A stretch of 35,818 nt of DNA from a virus: positions 1 through 35,818 of the IMG/VR virus record IMGVR_UViG_3300042433_000051. One strand, written 5' to 3'. The translations under genes were made by a program, and so were the position numbers. Numbering within the stretch: position 1 is the first letter of the stretch; each line of letters starts with the position of its first letter. The notes under the pieces were generated by a model. The model did not search any database, was not told where the DNA came from, and saw only the letters and a program-made list of their open reading frames with translations. Shown in pieces: positions 342 through 35,710 of the stretch.

Positions 342-1079
342 ATGACTTGGAAAGACCTTAATGTATTTCAATGGCAGCAACTAAATGACCTTTTCCTAAA
401 AAGTAAAGATGTTACTGATTTAGATTTGGCAATAAGTGCTGCTTCTATTTGTACCGGCTTAACGGAACACGAAATAGATTCTTTGCCTGTAAGCGATTTA
501 AACCCGCTTTTAAAGGCTATTTCTTTTATCCACGAAGAACTCAAGCCACAACCAGAAAGGTTCATAAAACTCAAAGGAAAGCGTTATAAGTGTATCTACG
601 ATGTTCGCAAGATTCCTGCGGCTCGTTATATAGAAACTAAACACTTTGGCAAAGATGTAAACGCCAATCTTCATAGAATAGCGGCTTGTATGGTTATGCC
701 GATGAAGAAAACATTATTCGGTTGGAAAGTGGATAAGTACGATGCAAGTAAACACGAACAGTACTCACAGGACATTTTAGAAGCACCAATAACGCAAGTC
801 CTTGGAAGCGTGGTTTTTTTTTATCAAGTTTACAGAAATTGGATAAAGAGTTCGAAGGATTATTTGATTCGGGAGATGATGGAGAACAAACTAACGAGAT
901 ATCAAGCCGAGATGGTTCATCAAAGTTTATGCAGTATTATGGATGGATATACCAAACCGAATTGGTTGCTGCATTCGAAAGAATCACGCTTGAAGAGGCT
1001 TATGAGTTACCTACAATCCAATTCCTTAATGATCTCTCTTATCTTAAATCGAAAAGCGAATACGAAGCAGACCAACTAA
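342..1079 (+). CDS. Tail assembly chaperone, unshifted product
   Basis: The 245-residue zero-frame product has an N-terminal half (about residues 1-160) that looks like a phage tail assembly chaperone: helical, with the segment DLDLAISAASICTGL. Such proteins coat the tape measure during tail assembly. Only 30 bases separate it from terL. After a run of nine T at 814-822, the zero-frame sequence becomes basic and irregular. The -1 frame over the same DNA reads as a well-formed acidic protein. The natural short product therefore either carries this odd 85-residue tail or is minor. A T-run sequencing error that split one 254-residue gene cannot be excluded. Confidence 0.75.
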   Translation: MTWKDLNVFQWQQLNDLFLKSKDVTDLDLAISAASICTGLTEHEIDSLPVSDLNPLLKAISFIHEELKPQPERFIKLKGKRYKCIYDVRKIPAARYIETKHFGKDVNANLHRIAACMVMPMKKTLFGWKVDKYDASKHEQYSQDILEAPITQVLGSVVFFYQVYRNWIKSSKDYLIREMMENKLTRYQAEMVHQSLCSIMDGYTKPNWLLHSKESRLKRLMSYLQSNSLMISLILNRKANTKQTN

Positions 1080-1105
1080 AGAAAGCGTATGCCAAAAAGT
1101 ATTAG
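342..1105 (+). CDS. Tail assembly chaperone, -1 frameshift fusion product (G-GT-like)
   Basis: Slipping back one base on T-TTT-TTT (815-821) joins codons 1-160 of the zero frame to an open -1 frame ending at the TAG of 1103-1105. The result is a protein of about 254 residues. The joined sequence is natural: the -1 segment continues with FLSSLQKLDKEFEGLF and later LEEAYELPTIQFLNDL. This is the lambda gpG/gpGT arrangement, in which a minor frameshifted product binds the tape measure and tail tube protein. The fusion end overlaps the next gene's start (1089) by 17 bases. No clear downstream pseudoknot was seen. Confidence 0.65.
814..822 (+). promoter_or_regulatory. Slippery T9 run, candidate -1 ribosomal frameshift site
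   Basis: Nine consecutive T read GTT TTT TTT TAT in the zero frame, giving a T-TTT-TTT heptamer that lets both tRNAs re-pair after a -1 slip. The -1 frame is open across the site and through to 1105. Confidence 0.6.
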
Positions 1106-3012: not shown

Positions 3013-5186
3013 TAACTGAAATCTACATAGAAGATAACAGGTTAGATTTAAGCAAAGATTTATCATCAGAGTTTACTTACGCTATTGATGATATACAAGA
3101 TTTTTCTGCTCGTAATACTAACTATTCCAAAACTATAATTCTACCCGGAAATGCAATTAACAACAAATTGTTCGGTCACATATTCGAGTTTTCATCAAGT
3201 AACTTCTATGATTCAACCGCCGATAATGTGGGTTACAACTTCAACGCATCCAAAGCTGCGAATTGTGTTATCTATGTAGATAAGATACAAGTATTTAAAG
3301 GTATTATTCGCCTTTTAGAAATAACCATAGATAGAGGTTCAATAGAATATGAATGTGTTGTATTTGGAGAATTAGGTGGTTTTGTTACTGCTCTTAATAA
3401 TGATAAACTTGAAGATTTAGATTTTAGTGCGTATGATCATAATTGGACATATCAAAATATTTTAGCTTCTTGGGAACAAGCCTCTGGAACTACTGCATCG
3501 GGAATGGGATATTATTATCCTTTAATTGACTACGGACAAGTTCACACAAATAAAAAGCATTGGAGTTATAAAGCATTCCGACCTGCTCTTTTTGTTCGTG
3601 AGTATTTAGATAAAATCATAACAGGAACAGGATATACATACGAAGCACCTTTCTTTGATACTAACTTATTTAAAAGATTAGTAATACCTAATAACCAAAA
3701 GCAATTAAGTAATTATACAAAATTGCAATTTGATGGAGATATAGAACCAATAACAATAAATAGCGTTATATCTACTACTGCCGATGCTTCTTACCCTAAT
3801 CCAGATGTAATAATCGGTTATGAATTTGGAATGGGTGGTACTGAATTGTTATATTGGACAGGAAGTTCTATTTCCCCAACCTTGACTTTATTTATTGATG
3901 GAAGTTTAGAAATACCACAAGGCGGAACAGGTTCTTTGAGAGTAAACTTTTTCAAGAACGGAAGTATAGTTAATACACAAACTGTAATAGCCGGAGATCC
4001 TGCCGGTAGAATAGATTTTCAAAGAACAATAACTTATAACATAACATTAGCAACGAACGATTATTTCTCTGTTCAATTTGAGTTATTTAATTTATCTGGT
4101 GGTTCTACTTGTTATATTTATAGCGGTAGTAATTTGACATCAACTACTAATGTAGCGGTATCATCTCCTTTGGCTTATGGTAGTTTAATTTTTATGAATA
4201 GTGGAATACCGAGGGGATTCTACCAGAGAGATTTTGTTTCATCTATAATGAAGATGTTTAACCTTTATATCGTTGAGGATTCAACGAAGGAAAAGCATTT
4301 AAAGATTATTCCATTCATTGATTACTATACAACAACCGCTCATTTTTTACAAGTTAATGACTTGGAAGAAGAGTTATTAATAGATGATATAGGTTTATTA
4401 TTATTAGATGATTACTCGGCTTCGCATTTAGATTGGACTGCTAAAATAGACCGCAGCAAACCTTTCAAATTAAAACCGATGTCAGAACTCAACGGAAGAT
4501 TTTTTGAGTTTAAATACAAAAGTGATTCTGATTTCTATAATGAAGATTACGCTAAACATTACGCTCAAGGATACGGAGATCATATAGAAGATACAGGGTA
4601 TCAATTTGCGAATGATAAACAAACTTCCGAGGTCATATTTTCTTCAACTGTACTCGTTGGATATGCCGGAGATGATAAGATTTATCCCACTATCTTTAAA
4701 CTTTCTAATACAAGTGCTGCCACGCCTTCAGAAGATCCGATAGACCATAACATACGAATAATGCAAGTTCGTAAAATTACAGGAGTAAGTGCTTGGGATA
4801 TGAAAGGCGATACCGGGAACTTAATTACTAACCTAACTTATTATGGTTATGGTGGGCATTTAGATGATCCAGATGCACCTACGGCAGATATTAACTTCGG
4901 TGTACCAGAAGAACTTTATTTTACATTACCGGTTTCATATCCTTCTGCTAATTTATTTAATGGCTTCTGGAGTGATTATGTCGCAGAGATTACAGACAAG
5001 GATAGCAAACTTTTAATTTGTAATGTCTATTTAAAGATAACCGATATCTATGGTTTAGACTTCTCAAAACTAATCTATATCGATGGTGCTTTATGGAGAT
5101 TAAATAAAGTTATCGACTACAACCCTACGAACCCCGAAAGCACTAAATGTGAATTTTTACGAGTAATTGAATTAAGTTATACATAA
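3009..5186 (+). CDS. Putative tail tip / baseplate protein
   Basis: This is a large (725-residue) beta-rich protein. It opens with ITEIYIEDNRLDLSKDLSSE and an aromatic, Asn-rich body; a central Gly/Ser/Thr-rich section (about residues 255-390) could be a carbohydrate-binding-like beta domain. A C-terminal section with many Asp/Tyr pairs follows. No catalytic motif was recognised. It is coupled to both neighbours by ATGA (5') and TAATG (3') overlaps. Its size and its adjacency to the tape measure gene fit a baseplate hub or distal tail protein of a siphovirus. Exact identity is uncertain. Confidence 0.55.
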   Translation: MITEIYIEDNRLDLSKDLSSEFTYAIDDIQDFSARNTNYSKTIILPGNAINNKLFGHIFEFSSSNFYDSTADNVGYNFNASKAANCVIYVDKIQVFKGIIRLLEITIDRGSIEYECVVFGELGGFVTALNNDKLEDLDFSAYDHNWTYQNILASWEQASGTTASGMGYYYPLIDYGQVHTNKKHWSYKAFRPALFVREYLDKIITGTGYTYEAPFFDTNLFKRLVIPNNQKQLSNYTKLQFDGDIEPITINSVISTTADASYPNPDVIIGYEFGMGGTELLYWTGSSISPTLTLFIDGSLEIPQGGTGSLRVNFFKNGSIVNTQTVIAGDPAGRIDFQRTITYNITLATNDYFSVQFELFNLSGGSTCYIYSGSNLTSTTNVAVSSPLAYGSLIFMNSGIPRGFYQRDFVSSIMKMFNLYIVEDSTKEKHLKIIPFIDYYTTTAHFLQVNDLEEELLIDDIGLLLLDDYSASHLDWTAKIDRSKPFKLKPMSELNGRFFEFKYKSDSDFYNEDYAKHYAQGYGDHIEDTGYQFANDKQTSEVIFSSTVLVGYAGDDKIYPTIFKLSNTSAATPSEDPIDHNIRIMQVRKITGVSAWDMKGDTGNLITNLTYYGYGGHLDDPDAPTADINFGVPEELYFTLPVSYPSANLFNGFWSDYVAEITDKDSKLLICNVYLKITDIYGLDFSKLIYIDGALWRLNKVIDYNPTNPESTKCEFLRVIELSYT

Positions 5187-7072
5187 TGGCAAACGAAATA
5201 GTAGGTTTAAAAATACAAGTCGATAGTGGCGAAGCAACAAAATCGGTAGGTTCTTTAAAAGCACAATTAAGAGAAGCACAAGCCGATGTAACAAAGCTAT
5301 CTGAAAAGTTTGGAGCGACTTCTAAAGAAGCGGTTGAAGCGGCAAAAAGAGCCGCAGATTTAAGAGATCGTATAGGAGATGCGAGAGCCTTAACTGATGC
5401 CTTTAATCCAGATGCTAAATTTCGAGCCTTTACCGCAACTTTAAGTGGAGTTGCCGGTGGATTTGCTGCGGTACAGGGTGCTTTGGGATTAGTCGGGGTT
5501 GAAAGTGATAAAGTAGAAAAAACACTTTTAAAGGTTCAAAGTGCAATGGCTATTTCTCAAGGTTTGCAAACTTTGGGCGAAAGCATAGATTCCTTTAAAC
5601 AATTAAGTGCGGTAATACAAAGCACAACAATTTTCCAGAAGGCTTATAATATAGCAACGATAGCGGCTGCTGCAATTCAAAGGGCATTTGGTGTTGCAGT
5701 TACAGGAACTTCATTAGCATTTAGAGCCTTACGAGGTGCGATTCTTGCGACAGGAATAGGTGCTTTGGTTATTGGAATTGGTGTTTTAGTTGATAAGATT
5801 ATAGATTGGACAAATAGAACATCAGAAGCAGAAAAGGCTCAAAACAAACTTTCTGCATCTACTAAATTACTTAATCAAGATATTGACAATCAAATTTCTG
5901 TTCTTACTGCATTAGGTGGTAAAGAAGAAGAGATTTATAAATTAAGATTACAAAGAAACGAAAACGAATTAAATGTTCTTCGCAATAAGTTAAAAACCCA
6001 AGGGAAACTTAATGAAGAAGAAATGGCTCAATTTAGGAAACTAAAAACCGATAAAGAGGTTTTAGATATCCAAGAAGCCAATAGAATAAAAAAACAACAA
6101 GAAGAGGAAACCAAAAAAAGGCAAGAAGAAAATAAAAAAGTTGTTGAAGATAGAAAAGAGAGAAACCAAGAAATACAACAAGCTGATGCTGACTTATTCA
6201 AAAAGACACAACAATTAAGTGATGAAATCTTTTTATCTGAAATTGAAGATGAAAAGATGCGAGAAGAAATTCGTGTTGCTATACAATACGAAAGAGAAAA
6301 AGCAGAAATAGAAAGAAGTATTGCTACCGAAGAGACAAAAGAAGAGGCTTTAAAAATATTACGACAGAAATACGATAATGACAGAAAATTATTAGCAGAT
6401 CAAAGAAGTGCGGCAGAAGTAGATGCTTTAACAAATAAATTATTTGCGGAAGTACAAGCAGAACAAGAAGCAGCCGATTTAAAGATTAAAAATTCTTTTG
6501 ATGAATTAGATGCTATAACTAATAATTTACTTGCAGAGGTAGATGCTGAAGCGAAAGCGGCAGAAGCTAAAAAACAAATAGCAGAAGCAGAAAGTCAATT
6601 TAAAAAGCAGCAACTTATGGAAGTGGGTGCTGCGGTGCAAAACTTAACGACTATTGTAGGAAGAGATACAGTCGCAGGAAAAGCATTGGGAATTGCAACT
6701 GCTTTAATAAATACTTATCAAGGTGCATCGGAAGCTATAAAACAAAAATCTACTTTGCCATCTCCTTTTGATGTTATTGCAAAAGTTGCAAATGTAGGAG
6801 CAATAATTGCGACAGGATTAAGAACGGTAAAAGCAATTACTTCGGTACAAGTTCCCGGAGTTGGCGGCGGTGCTTCTCCTGCAACACCAAATGTTCAAGT
6901 AGCTGCACCGATTACTCCTGCACCTTCTCCGCAAGTAGCTTCAACTTTATTAAATGCACAAGCTATTCAGCAATTAGGTTCAGCAACAAATCGTGCCTAT
7001 GTGCTTGAAACTGATGTTACTAACTCACAAGAAAGAATCAGAAGAATTAACAGAGCGGCAAGATTAGGTTAA
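5186..7072 (+). CDS. Tail tape measure protein
   Basis: The protein sets tail length and is packed inside the tail tube. It has 628 residues. It begins with an amphipathic helical region full of Ala, Lys and Glu (residues 1-75). Hydrophobic segments follow at about 80-105 and 181-207 (ATGIGALVIGIGVLVDKI). A long charged coiled coil lies at about 215-480 (EEETKKRQEENKKVVEDRKE). A Pro/Ala/Val-rich linker lies near 565-590. This layout is diagnostic of short tape measures. If about 1.5 angstrom per residue holds, the tail would be near 95 nm. The start overlaps the previous stop by one base (TAATG). Confidence 0.93.
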   Translation: MANEIVGLKIQVDSGEATKSVGSLKAQLREAQADVTKLSEKFGATSKEAVEAAKRAADLRDRIGDARALTDAFNPDAKFRAFTATLSGVAGGFAAVQGALGLVGVESDKVEKTLLKVQSAMAISQGLQTLGESIDSFKQLSAVIQSTTIFQKAYNIATIAAAAIQRAFGVAVTGTSLAFRALRGAILATGIGALVIGIGVLVDKIIDWTNRTSEAEKAQNKLSASTKLLNQDIDNQISVLTALGGKEEEIYKLRLQRNENELNVLRNKLKTQGKLNEEEMAQFRKLKTDKEVLDIQEANRIKKQQEEETKKRQEENKKVVEDRKERNQEIQQADADLFKKTQQLSDEIFLSEIEDEKMREEIRVAIQYEREKAEIERSIATEETKEEALKILRQKYDNDRKLLADQRSAAEVDALTNKLFAEVQAEQEAADLKIKNSFDELDAITNNLLAEVDAEAKAAEAKKQIAEAESQFKKQQLMEVGAAVQNLTTIVGRDTVAGKALGIATALINTYQGASEAIKQKSTLPSPFDVIAKVANVGAIIATGLRTVKAITSVQVPGVGGGASPATPNVQVAAPITPAPSPQVASTLLNAQAIQQLGSATNRAYVLETDVTNSQERIRRINRAARLG

Positions 7073-7087: not shown

Positions 7088-8950
7088 ATGGAAAAAGAAT
7101 TACCAATATACCGGTTGGATATAGTTGAAGATTTAGAATCTAATGTCGAAGTTGATTTTGTTGCTCTCGTAGATAGACCTGCGATTGAGAAATCATTTTT
7201 AGCTTTCCAAGATTCGTATTCCGATTATCCAGATTCCGTTAGTAACAACGCAAAGGCAGCTTTAAAATGGGCAGAAGAAAACGGATGGGGTTCTTGTGGT
7301 ACTCCTGTCGGTAAACAAAGAGCGAATCAATTAGCAAAAGGCGAAGCAATATCTTTTGAGACAATTAAAAGAATGTACTCTTTCCTTTCCAGACACAAAG
7401 AGAATGCTGAAAAATCAAAAGGTTACGGAGATGGTTGTGGGCAATTGATGTACGATGCGTGGGGTGGAGCGAGTGCTTTGAGTTGGGCAGAGGCTAAAAT
7501 AAACTCCATAGAAAAACAGAAGTTTGCCATTCAAGATGAAGAGGAAAGGATTATTTCCGGTGCTTTGATGTTAGCCGATACTCCTATTTACCGAAACGAT
7601 GCAAATGGCGAATATTATGTTGTATTTACTAAAGACACTATTAAAAAGATTGCTCAAAAATATTTTAAAAAAGGGTATCAAAACAATGTGAATTTGATGC
7701 ACGATTCTGGTCAAGTGATGGATGGAATCACAATGTTTGAAAGTTGGATAGTGGATGAAAACAGAGGCATTAAACCGATGAAAGGTTTTGAAGATGTAAA
7801 GGATGGTTCTTGGTTTGGTTCTTTTAAAGTTGAGAATGATGAAGTTTGGCAGATGATTAAGGATGGCAAAGTACAAGGATTTTCTGTTGAGGGAATATTT
7901 AATTACAAAACCAATCTTCCAGAGCCTACTAAAGAAGAAAAAATGATGCAAGACATTATTAATATTCTTGAGCAGGTTGATATGTTTTGGGAAGAAGAAG
8001 ATGTCGAAAGGGATGAAAGCGGAAGATTTGCACCAAAAGGCGGTGGTGGCGGGAAAGAAGATGAAGGTAAAATACCCCAAGTAAAAAAAAATGAAAACCC
8101 GGTAGATACAAAAGTCAATGTTGAAGTAGAAAGACCGGAGTGGTCAAGAAAAAATGATAAGTACGAATCTGCCGCAAAAGAAACAATAAATAAAATATTA
8201 GAAGATAATAATTGGAATTCCGGAACAGATAAATTTTATTCCGATAAATCTGGTAGAATTACTGAAGAGAGGTTAGATTTCCATAATAAACTTGCCGGAG
8301 ATTATATCGGTGGATCAAGAAGTAAAGATTATCAAGATACAGGAACGAGTTATTTTATGGGTGGGGCACCTGCAACGGGTAAGAGTTCTATTGAGAAAGG
8401 CGGTCTTGTTGAGTTCCCCAAAGGAATTTTAAAGGTAGATCCAGATGGCATTAAAGATGGATTCCCAGAATATAGGGAAATGCTTAATAGAAGAGAATTT
8501 TCGGCTGCTTCTCGCATACACGAAGAAAGTTCAAAAGTTTCAAAAGACATCGTAAAAACTGCCGCTAAAAACAAATGGGATATAGTGGTGGATGCGGTAG
8601 GCGATGGAACTTATCAGAGTGTCATAGATAAGGTTAAGCAACAAAGAGAATCCGGGAAAAGAGTTGTAGCTCATTATGTTACTACCGATACAGAAGTATC
8701 TGTAAAAAGAGCAGAAGAAAGAGCCAGAAAAACCGGTAGATATGTACCGGAAAAATACATCAGAGATATGCACCGAGAAATCTCGGTCTTGCTTCCAAAG
8801 TTCGCCAAAAATAATGTATTTGATGAATTGCATCTATACGATAACAATGGGAAAAAACCGAAGCTAATCTTCTCTCATACTAAAGGAAAATCAACTATTT
8901 ACGATAGAAAAGCCTACAATAAATTTTTAGCGAAAGCAAAAGAAAGTTAA
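7088..8950 (+). CDS. Prohead protease (XkdF-like) fused to zeta-toxin-like kinase
   Basis: This 620-residue protein has three parts. Residues 1-41 (VDFVALVDRPAIEKSFLAF) and about 143-285 match XkdF-type serine prohead proteases (Peptidase S78_2), with a likely catalytic His205 (LMHDSG) and Ser266 (GFSVEG). Between them, at about 48-140, is the small domain with GTPVGKQRANQLAKG and DGCGQLMYDAWGG often inserted in phage head proteins. After an RDESGRFAPKGGGGGK linker (about 307-323) comes a zeta-toxin-like P-loop domain. It has Walker A GGAPATGKS at 425-433 (Lys432), an Asp at 502 (VVDAVGD) and a C-terminal Arg/Lys-rich lid. Zeta kinases phosphorylate UDP-N-acetylsugars. The protease would mature the capsid; the kinase may be carried in the head or act on the host. 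No antitoxin is obvious. Confidence 0.85.
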   Translation: MEKELPIYRLDIVEDLESNVEVDFVALVDRPAIEKSFLAFQDSYSDYPDSVSNNAKAALKWAEENGWGSCGTPVGKQRANQLAKGEAISFETIKRMYSFLSRHKENAEKSKGYGDGCGQLMYDAWGGASALSWAEAKINSIEKQKFAIQDEEERIISGALMLADTPIYRNDANGEYYVVFTKDTIKKIAQKYFKKGYQNNVNLMHDSGQVMDGITMFESWIVDENRGIKPMKGFEDVKDGSWFGSFKVENDEVWQMIKDGKVQGFSVEGIFNYKTNLPEPTKEEKMMQDIINILEQVDMFWEEEDVERDESGRFAPKGGGGGKEDEGKIPQVKKNENPVDTKVNVEVERPEWSRKNDKYESAAKETINKILEDNNWNSGTDKFYSDKSGRITEERLDFHNKLAGDYIGGSRSKDYQDTGTSYFMGGAPATGKSSIEKGGLVEFPKGILKVDPDGIKDGFPEYREMLNRREFSAASRIHEESSKVSKDIVKTAAKNKWDIVVDAVGDGTYQSVIDKVKQQRESGKRVVAHYVTTDTEVSVKRAEERARKTGRYVPEKYIRDMHREISVLLPKFAKNNVFDELHLYDNNGKKPKLIFSHTKGKSTIYDRKAYNKFLAKAKES

Positions 8951-10358: not shown

Positions 10359-10405
10359 AATTTTTTTCCAAGTTTTTTTTAATTTTTTTTGGCTAATTTT
10401 TTTAG

Positions 10406-10413: not shown

Positions 10414-10438
10414 CTCGGTTTTCATAGTTTTGTTTGAA

Positions 10439-28651: not shown

Positions 28652-28720
28652 GAGCCGGTGGAAGATTCGAACTCCCATCTCCTTACAAAGTAAAGGTGTT
28701 ACCAATTACACCAACCGGCT
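28652..28720 (-). tRNA. Degenerate tRNA-like element (isotype ambiguous)
   Basis: On the minus strand a perfect 7-bp acceptor stem (AGCCGGT/ACCGGCT), a D arm (GTGT...ACAC with loop AATTGGTA) and a T arm (GGGAG-TTCGAAT-CTTCC) form a clear tRNA scaffold. The anticodon arm plus variable loop is about 3 bases too short. The loop reads TTTGTAA (UGU, Thr) with a mismatched stem, or CCTT...AAGG closing an 8-base loop (UUG, Gln). CCA is not encoded. It may be a decayed tRNA, an mRNA-processing signal or a tRNA mimic. Confidence 0.65.
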
Positions 28721-34196: not shown

Positions 34197-34562
34197 ATGG
34201 CAGCGAAAGACATTATAAAACATCAATTTAAGAAGGGAGAAGTAGCAAATCCAAATGGCAGACCTCGTAAATACATAAGCCAATTAAAAGAACAAGGCTA
34301 TAAAATATCAGAGGTAAACGATGCTATACAGGCTTTATTATCAATGGATATCGAAGAACTCAAACAAGTATTAGAGAATCCTAAAGCGACTATTTTGGAA
34401 TTGACTATCGCTACCGCTATGCTGCAATCTTTAAAGAAGGGATCTCTATATTCTATGGAAACCTTATTAACGAGGGTTTACGGAAAACCAAAAGAGATTC
34501 AAGAAGTTAGCCAAGATTCAAAGATCGAGGTTGTTTTCGTTAATGGGAAAACCATTTTATGA
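34197..34562 (+). CDS. terS: Terminase small subunit
   Basis: A 121-residue protein. The N terminus (HQFKKGEVANPNGRPRKYIS) is a DNA-binding segment of the GRP type, and the rest (TILELTIATAMLQSLKKGSL, then LLTRVYGKPKEIQEV) matches phage small terminases that recognise the packaging site. It ends in an ATGA overlap with terL. The packaging signal should lie near here. Confidence 0.85.
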   Translation: MAAKDIIKHQFKKGEVANPNGRPRKYISQLKEQGYKISEVNDAIQALLSMDIEELKQVLENPKATILELTIATAMLQSLKKGSLYSMETLLTRVYGKPKEIQEVSQDSKIEVVFVNGKTIL

Positions 34563-35710
34563 AAATTGAACTACCTAACCCTCATATTAACCAACAAAGG
34601 ATTCTTGATTCAAACGCAAGATTTCGTGTTGTTATGGCAGGGCGAAGGTTTGGGAAGTCGGAACTATCTCAAATAGAAATAATACTCAATGCTTTACAAG
34701 GGAAACAGGTTTTCTATGTTACCCCTACTTATAATCTGGCTCGTGTCTTTTTTGACCAATTAGCCAAAGCAGTTCCCTTTGAATCTAATAAATCCGAACT
34801 ATCGATTAAGTTCCCAAATGGGGGAGCGGTTTACTTCTTTACAGGGGAACGATTAGACAATCTCCGAGGAAGGAAGTTCCACTTCGGGGTTATAGATGAA
34901 GCCTCGTTTATTCCAGACCTTGAAAACGGATGGCTTAATTCAATCCGACCTACCTTAACCGACTACAAAGGAAGAGCCTTGTTTATTTCAACACCCAAAG
35001 GAAAGAACTTCTTTTATTCTTTATTCTTGAAATCTGGAGAACCCGATTGGGAATCTTTTAAGTTTACCACTTACGATAACCCATACATCGATAAAACGGA
35101 AATAGATGATGCAAGGCTTCAACTCCCCGAAGTTGTCTTTGAGCAAGAATATATGGCTAATCCTGCTGAAAACGCCTCTAATCCTTTCGGAAGTAGTTAT
35201 ATCAAGCAATGCACATTTGAGGTCAGCCACGAGGCTCCTATTGTGTTTGGGATTGATTTGGCGAAGTCGGTGGATTTCACAGTAATCATAGGCTTGGATA
35301 AAAATGGCTCGGTTAGTTACTTTGAGAGGTTTCAAAAGGATTGGAGACAGACAAAGCAAGTAATAAATAATTTACCTAAAATCCCGATGTTAATAGATTC
35401 AACAGGGGCAGGAGATCCAATCTTTGAGGACTTACAAAGGGATGGCTTAAATGTATCGGGGTTTAAGTTTAGTTCTACCTCAAAGCAACAACTAATGGAA
35501 GGATTGGCTTCGGCTATACAACAAAGGAAGATAACCTTTCCCGAAGGTCATATCGTAAACGAATTAGAAATATTTGAATATCAATACACCGCAACCGGAG
35601 TTCGGTATTCCGCTCCGCAAGGCTTTCACGATGACTGCGTAATGGCTCTTGCTTTAGCTTGGCAACACTACACAAGAAACACAGGACAAGGGAAGTATTC
35701 ATTCGCTTGA
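34559..35710 (+). CDS. terL: Terminase large subunit (complete copy)
   Basis: This 383-residue ATPase-nuclease is shorter than usual (420-550). Walker A is AGRRFGKS (27-34), Walker B is GVIDEAS (Asp113, Glu114), and coupling motif LFISTPKG follows. The nuclease domain carries FGIDLAKSVDF (Asp233), MLIDSTGAGDP (Asp280) and FHDDC (358-359). Its last 311 bases are duplicated, diverged, at the start of the window. It overlaps terS by 4 bases, so the pair is translationally coupled. Confidence 0.97.
   Translation: MKIELPNPHINQQRILDSNARFRVVMAGRRFGKSELSQIEIILNALQGKQVFYVTPTYNLARVFFDQLAKAVPFESNKSELSIKFPNGGAVYFFTGERLDNLRGRKFHFGVIDEASFIPDLENGWLNSIRPTLTDYKGRALFISTPKGKNFFYSLFLKSGEPDWESFKFTTYDNPYIDKTEIDDARLQLPEVVFEQEYMANPAENASNPFGSSYIKQCTFEVSHEAPIVFGIDLAKSVDFTVIIGLDKNGSVSYFERFQKDWRQTKQVINNLPKIPMLIDSTGAGDPIFEDLQRDGLNVSGFKFSSTSKQQLMEGLASAIQQRKITFPEGHIVNELEIFEYQYTATGVRYSAPQGFHDDCVMALALAWQHYTRNTGQGKYSFA

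Follow-up and report, generated by a model that had tools for sequence, protein, structure and literature searches.

Programmed frameshifting of the G/GT type is among the best-conserved recoding events of tailed phages. In phage lambda (gpG/gpGT) and in HK97 (gp13/gp14) a single start serves two proteins with a common N-terminal domain, and a slippery site gives access to a -1 reading frame without a start of its own, which adds the T extension. The site lies close to the end of the shorter protein: lambda, which slips at GGGAAAG, reaches its zero-frame stop 5 codons later; HK97 about 5 codons later, assuming that GGGAAAA is its site; and the contractile-tailed phage P2 (gpE/E+E', Pfam family TAC_7) 6 codons after a -1 shift on the T-rich heptamer TTTTTTG. 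The closest precedent for a long overlap is the gp17.5/gp17.5* pair of SPP1, a phage of a Gram-positive host. According to the published account (PMC6316719), a -1 slip is predicted there on UUUUUUC, and 112 of the 173 residues of gp17.5 are shared with gp17.5*, lengths which imply 61 zero-frame codons beyond the slip.

The locus described here lies in a virus record of 35,818 bases with a gene set of Bacteroidota-phage type, the whole of which is referred to below as the window. It resembles the lambda and HK97 pairs in having one start, a slippery site, a -1 frame without its own start, a shared N-terminal domain, a T-like extension and a place in the tail module, although the comparison with G/GT genes is one of architecture only. 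It differs from lambda in that the slippery sequence is a run of nine Ts (T9), with no demonstrated sequence homology between the two genes, and in that the zero frame continues for 85 codons after the slip. An early end of the zero frame is usual in G/GT genes, if not strictly defining, and is absent both here and among the relatives, where 47-85 further codons are found. The overlap, which the first-pass annotation had singled out as unusually long, is indeed so against lambda, P2 and HK97, but the 61 codons predicted for SPP1 (PMC6316719) mean that it is not unprecedented. What sets the locus apart is that lambda, P2 and HK97 switch frame just before the zero frame runs out, whereas here the switch falls in mid-domain and both outcomes are under selection. 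The T9 run is taken, with a probability of about 0.87, to be a lambda G/GT-like recoding site with a G-like and a GT-like product. That both proteins are made, in what proportion, by slippage of which machine, and that they act as tail chaperones, is inferred.

A T9 run conserved across the family

The zero-frame open reading frame occupies positions 342-1079 (+ strand) and encodes 245 amino acids. Its first 160 residues (342-821, +) form the putative N-terminal chaperone domain common to both products, which is 44-99% identical across 80 loci. The T9 run at 814-822 (+) is read GTT TTT TTT TAT in the zero frame, and its heptamer T TTT TTT (815-821) stands in the register that a -1 tandem slip requires. 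Entered at this point, the -1 frame is open to a stop codon at 1103-1105, and the fusion would have 254 residues. That both frames are open past 814-822 had been proposed in the first-pass annotation and is borne out, its coordinates being correct. The +1 frame meets a stop 7 codons after the run in the window and is closed by about 16 codons in the loci tabulated. The 35.8-kb window has no other T9 run; T8 occurs in it four times and A9 once.

A search of viral contigs yielded the 80 loci mentioned above, and profile searches more than 200 others; after deduplication, 179 distinct sequences span the whole site. Every one of the 179 has T9 or T10 in the same codon register. T10 is the state of a single clade, in which a substitution turned the following codon from TAT into TTA, and the relation between the frames is the same. 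The codons of the run are invariably GTT, ATT or CTT followed by TTT TTT. In the remainder of these genes, by contrast, only 63-66% of phenylalanine codons are TTT and only 33% of V/I/L codons end in T. The product of these codon choices over 65 divergent representatives gives P < 1e-50, a value overstated by treating the representatives as independent.

The run also occurs in cultured phages. A fold search of predicted viral proteins retrieved, besides many environmental phage proteins, gene 38 of Nonlabens phage P12024S (E 1.6e-7), and alignment of profiles (hhalign) matched the N-terminal domain with it over residues 32-165, reaching the FFY at the slip (E 9e-9, probability 96%). PHROG 32199, the family of P12024S gene 38, likewise matches the window protein (E 0.0012), which supports homology of the N-terminal domains. 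In the isolates P12024S and P12024L the homologous gene directly follows the terminase gene, as in the window, and contains T9 in the same register. In these isolates the zero-frame ending extends only 25 residues past the slip, as against 85 in the window, and the -1 tail has 81 residues; that of P12024S is too diverged for significant alignment with the T tail of the window (hhalign probability 1.5%) or with the family T profile. In both isolates the -1 tail is annotated as a separate gene starting from an internal ATG, and both genes are listed as hypothetical; genes 38/39 of P12024S (L347:23136-23830) and 40/41 of P12024L (L349:1247-1941) look like one frameshifted gene each. More widely, hundreds of environmental phages can be expected to have this locus called by annotation pipelines as only half of the gene or as two. 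These cultured relatives were recovered through the fold search only: sequence searches of isolate phages with the window DNA, the fused protein and a homologue encoded in a single frame gave no match.

Homopolymers are prone to error, and a T run might in principle be a hypermutable switch, or a fault of sequencing or assembly, in a gene that truly has a single frame with T8 or T10. Such an origin is extremely improbable. T9 recurs in scores of contigs assembled independently, as well as in the genomes of two isolates; T10 is clade-specific, derived by substitution, and leaves the relation of the frames unaltered; the identical run length in near-identical strains argues against a mutational switch; and selection, as set out below, acts on the zero-frame ending too. 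The T9 site is real, beyond chance, and no assembly error.

Two endings from one stretch of DNA

The -1 frame is closed at 4-29 codons upstream of the slip and so can be entered only there. Right from the slip point its sequence is conserved (LSS.Q.LD). The first part of the tail (821-865, +; translation LSSLQKLDKEFEGLF), which would supply an alternative second half of the helix at the junction, has D8, F11, G13 and L14 invariant in alignment A2. It is followed by a variable linker rich in D, G and S (866-925, +), whose columns in A2 are poorly conserved, and by a T-like helical module that ends with the stop codon (926-1105, +; FMQYYGWIYQTELVA...LNDLSYLKSK...). In this module F36, G41, W42, A50, L69, N70, Y74 and K76 are invariant in A2, and viral contigs contain over 500 candidate stretches coding for the module.

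It could be supposed that the -1 frame is instead an independent gene translated from a start within the zero frame, which is how gene 39 of P12024S is annotated; candidate internal starts do exist, a TTG at 839 in the window and an ATG in P12024S. This is nevertheless improbable, for conservation of the -1 frame begins upstream of the candidate starts, many relatives have I, V or L where 'FMQYYGW' has its ATG, and there are homologues that carry the fused protein outright. Eight contigs (L314-L317 and L323-L326, with L317 and L323 representing a single virus) lack the T run; in them the N-terminal domain and the T tail are encoded as one uninterrupted protein of 236-239 residues, in the same gene neighbourhood. 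Such natural fusions indicate that the N-terminal domain and the -1 tail belong together.

The zero-frame ending is absent from these eight contigs, which encode only the long fused chaperone. Their lineage is nested within the family in a midpoint-rooted tree, and T9 is present in the distant relative P12024S; the simpler reading is therefore that the lineage arose by loss of the T run and with it of the two-product arrangement, although the rooting is uncertain. Since the lineage lives without a frameshift, the arrangement is not indispensable everywhere. The first-pass annotation had held that homologues consisting of a single gene with no run of T would speak against the site. Homologues of this kind exist, in this one lineage, but they corroborate the fusion protein and do not refute the site.

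Comparison of homologues in both frames, which had been recommended at the outset, showed the zero frame to stay open after the T run in all 179 sequences. It runs for 47-85 codons beyond the slip, the longest value being that of the window, and the shortest tails (L126, L133 and L134) stop at the end of what may be termed the zero-frame core, about 47 codons in length (822-962, + in the window). Divergence was analysed by codon position among close relatives of 70-80% nucleotide identity. The N-terminal domain gave differences of 0.20/0.11/0.53 at positions 1/2/3, the normal pattern for a single frame, and the first 50 or so codons after the slip gave 0.16/0.20/0.24. Variation at 4-fold sites in the same relatives was 0.116 for the -1 frame and 0.274 for the zero frame, against 0.634 in the N-terminal domain. 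The divergent set of 65 representatives, all below 90% identity, gave for the first 45 or so post-slip codons 0.154 in the -1 frame (bootstrap interval 0.115-0.193) and 0.28 in the zero frame (0.222-0.332), neither interval overlapping that of the N-terminal domain (0.531; 0.470-0.576). The first 45-50 codons after the slip are thus under purifying selection in both frames and, as the two endings share one stretch of DNA, about 140 bases are selected in both simultaneously. Among the open-access papers searched, none was found to describe dual selection in an overlap of this sort.

Beyond these 45-50 codons constraint is mainly on the -1 frame. In the last 33 or so zero-frame codons position 2, the third position of the -1 frame, is the most divergent (0.40), and across the extension of the zero-frame tail (963-1079, +; stop codon 1077-1079) -1 4-fold sites vary at 0.36-0.49. 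Amino-acid constraint in the extension is weak, yet even there the clade to which the window belongs keeps its zero frame free of stops. Given the -1 protein and the phage's own codon usage, the chance of an open zero frame among the close relatives is P ~0.0006 or less. Tree simulations with constraint on the -1 frame alone, each started from one observed sequence, left all tips open to codon 83 in none of 60 runs at each of three rates. The close clade was chosen by tail length; of the sequences L001-L055 that cover the region, a shorter tail is found only in L054, a single contig broken by an apparent premature stop at codon 41, which was excluded. Where a leucine codon of the -1 frame precedes an A, its last base in this clade is C or T (92 cases) and in no case A or G before the conserved zero-frame stop is reached; there the -1 leucine codon ends in A in 43 of 43 sequences. 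Distant relatives, past their own earlier zero-frame stops, have A or G at those leucine codons in 24 of 32 cases.

Predicted structures place the branch point within a helix. In the AlphaFold2 model of the zero-frame protein (alignment of 65 rows, mean pLDDT 83) the slip lies inside helix 150-170, which is followed by helices 172-181 and 186-201 (pLDDT blocks 82-92); residues 161-200 are mostly at pLDDT 82-92, and the end of the chain from about residue 205 is of low confidence (52-66). The zero-frame core accordingly comprises the second half of the junction helix and two further helices. In the model of a single-frame homologue a helix (147-167) spans the junction as well, leading to a disordered linker (168-197, pLDDT below 50) and then to a C-terminal helical module of moderate confidence. 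In these models the switch of frame rewrites the second half of one helix, after which the two endings are unrelated. Searches of solved structures, by sequence and by fold, gave no match.

These results bear on whether the zero-frame ending might be a passive by-product of an open frame, the -1 product alone being of consequence. Loss of that ending in the single-frame lineage would agree with this, and for the last 35-40 zero-frame codons, with their low model confidence and weak amino-acid constraint, a passive origin holds. As an account of the whole ending it is improbable: the first 45 or so codons are strongly constrained, with conservation extending to individual V, I, S, Y, L and G residues in the 65 divergent members, and they are confidently folded in the model. 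The earlier opinion that the -1 continuation is the more protein-like of the two is likewise right for the last 35-40 zero-frame codons, which look passive, and wrong for the first 45-50, where the zero frame is equally conserved and predicted to fold (pLDDT mostly 82-92).

On the preferred reading of a G/GT-like pair, most decoding would remain in the zero frame and yield the 245-residue G-like protein, consisting of the N-terminal domain and its helical C-terminal ending. A minority of events would slip -1 at the nine Ts, or read an mRNA with one extra U, to give the GT-like protein of 254 residues, whose junction helix would have a different second half, leading into a flexible linker and the T-like module. 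If the parallel with lambda holds, the tape measure protein would be coated by the common form, while recruitment of the tail tube protein would fall to the T module. The locus offers a natural dual-coding system with well over a hundred homologues, one lineage without the arrangement and a cultured relative that can be studied in the laboratory.

Slippage by the ribosome or by RNA polymerase

The first-pass annotation had proposed a lambda G/GT-type programmed frameshift. The likeness to G/GT stands, on the strength of the conserved slippery run, the -1 tail conserved from the slip onwards, the single-frame fusions and the cultured relative with the same site; the translational nature of the event does not follow, because nine Ts of conserved length also fit slippage by RNA polymerase. 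In that case transcripts of the run would vary between U8, U9 and U10, and the U10 mRNA would encode the fused protein. Either machine would yield the same proteins, by different mechanisms under different regulation. A survey of 108 bacterial genomes found A and T runs to be selected against from length nine in many of them, and concluded that a run of 9A or 9T whose length is constant in all homologues is very likely a site of transcriptional slippage (PMC1088944). The present run, with at least nine Ts and its length conserved among homologues, fits that published rule (PMC1088944); it resembles the genes in which such slippage is known (Thermus dnaX, Shigella mxiE and IS elements) in having a length-conserved nine-base homopolymer and two products, and differs in being known from DNA alone. 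Every homologue has nine Ts or more, when a -1 slip by the ribosome needs only seven.

Two further observations favour the polymerase, since they mean that the two usual helpers of -1 frameshifting are missing. No stable RNA structure was detected downstream of the run in ten folded stretches from nine viruses (z -1.1 to +1.1), and ribosomes of Bacteroidia, according to a published study (PMC9976891), do not use Shine-Dalgarno pairing. Against this, the outer two Ts can be explained by constraint on the protein, the one in front being the middle base of a V, I or L codon and the one behind belonging to an L or F codon of the -1 frame. The G/GT genes of lambda, P2 and SPP1 are, moreover, attributed to frameshifting by the ribosome, in two cases on T6 heptamers (reviewed in PMC5009743), and lambda needs only a low level of slippage. 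As the outer Ts may be constrained by the protein, the choice of slipping machine is judged near even, with the ribosome slightly favoured and polymerase slippage a serious contender that falls a little short of an even chance. The fuller proposition, of a tail chaperone pair in which about 140 bases encode two selected endings branching within one helix, in a ratio set by the host RNA polymerase on T9, can be advanced only tentatively. The system allows a test of whether polymerase slippage sets the G:GT ratio in phages of Bacteroidota, a group in which ribosomes disregard Shine-Dalgarno signals.

Gene neighbourhood, families and host

The ATG of the next gene (1089-1829, +), which encodes an HK97-gp10-like tail component (PF04883, E 0.0012, just under the cut-off), sits inside the end of the -1 frame. 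The tape measure gene of the same tail module (5186-7072, +; phrog_1538 E 2e-6, phrog_9483 E 6e-6) lies 4.1 kb downstream. The gene for the terminase large subunit (34559-35710, +; phrog_2 E 7e-52) is directly upstream of the chaperone gene if the genome is circularised, and the terminase end recurs at 3-311. The chaperone gene is thus placed between the terminase and gp10-like genes and not, as is usual for G/GT genes though not strictly defining, between those for the major tail protein and the tape measure protein; in lambda, by contrast, G/GT adjoins the tape measure gene.

TAC_7 (PF10109 Phage_TAC_7), the family of P2 gpE, is the sole tail-chaperone family to match the N-terminal domain, and does so weakly. 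The window protein scores 14.2 bits against a gathering score of 25, so that it falls outside the family as defined, and 17 of 65 members give a weak match (best E 4.5e-4, below the cut-off). Flavobacterium phage 6H, a weak match in the fold search, has no matching frameshift layout in the stretch read. Prokaryote genomes searched with the N-terminal domain gave no match, and the T tail found one, in a contig of a Chitinophagaceae metagenome-assembled genome. This contig and the Flavobacteriia host of P12024S provide an indirect link to a Bacteroidota host.

The contig ends (1-419 and 35400-35818) are mutual repeats of 419 bases with 90.2% identity, and their mismatches lie mostly at third codon positions (8/3/30 at positions 1/2/3). 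The two ends are probably from related strains joined in assembly, and bases 1-419 may come from a different strain than the rest of the window.

An open reading frame at 7088-8950 encodes an XkdF-type S78 prohead protease (PF14550) fused to a Zeta-toxin-like kinase domain (PF06414, E 1e-27). The A9 run at 8083-8091 lies between the two domains, with stops in both other frames no more than 4 codons away, so that slippage there would release the protease part alone; this is possibly a second slippage-controlled gene. Elsewhere in the window there is a tRNA gene at 28652-28720 on the - strand (Rfam), and two T8 runs with AA between them (10373-10390) stand just upstream of an open reading frame at 10430.
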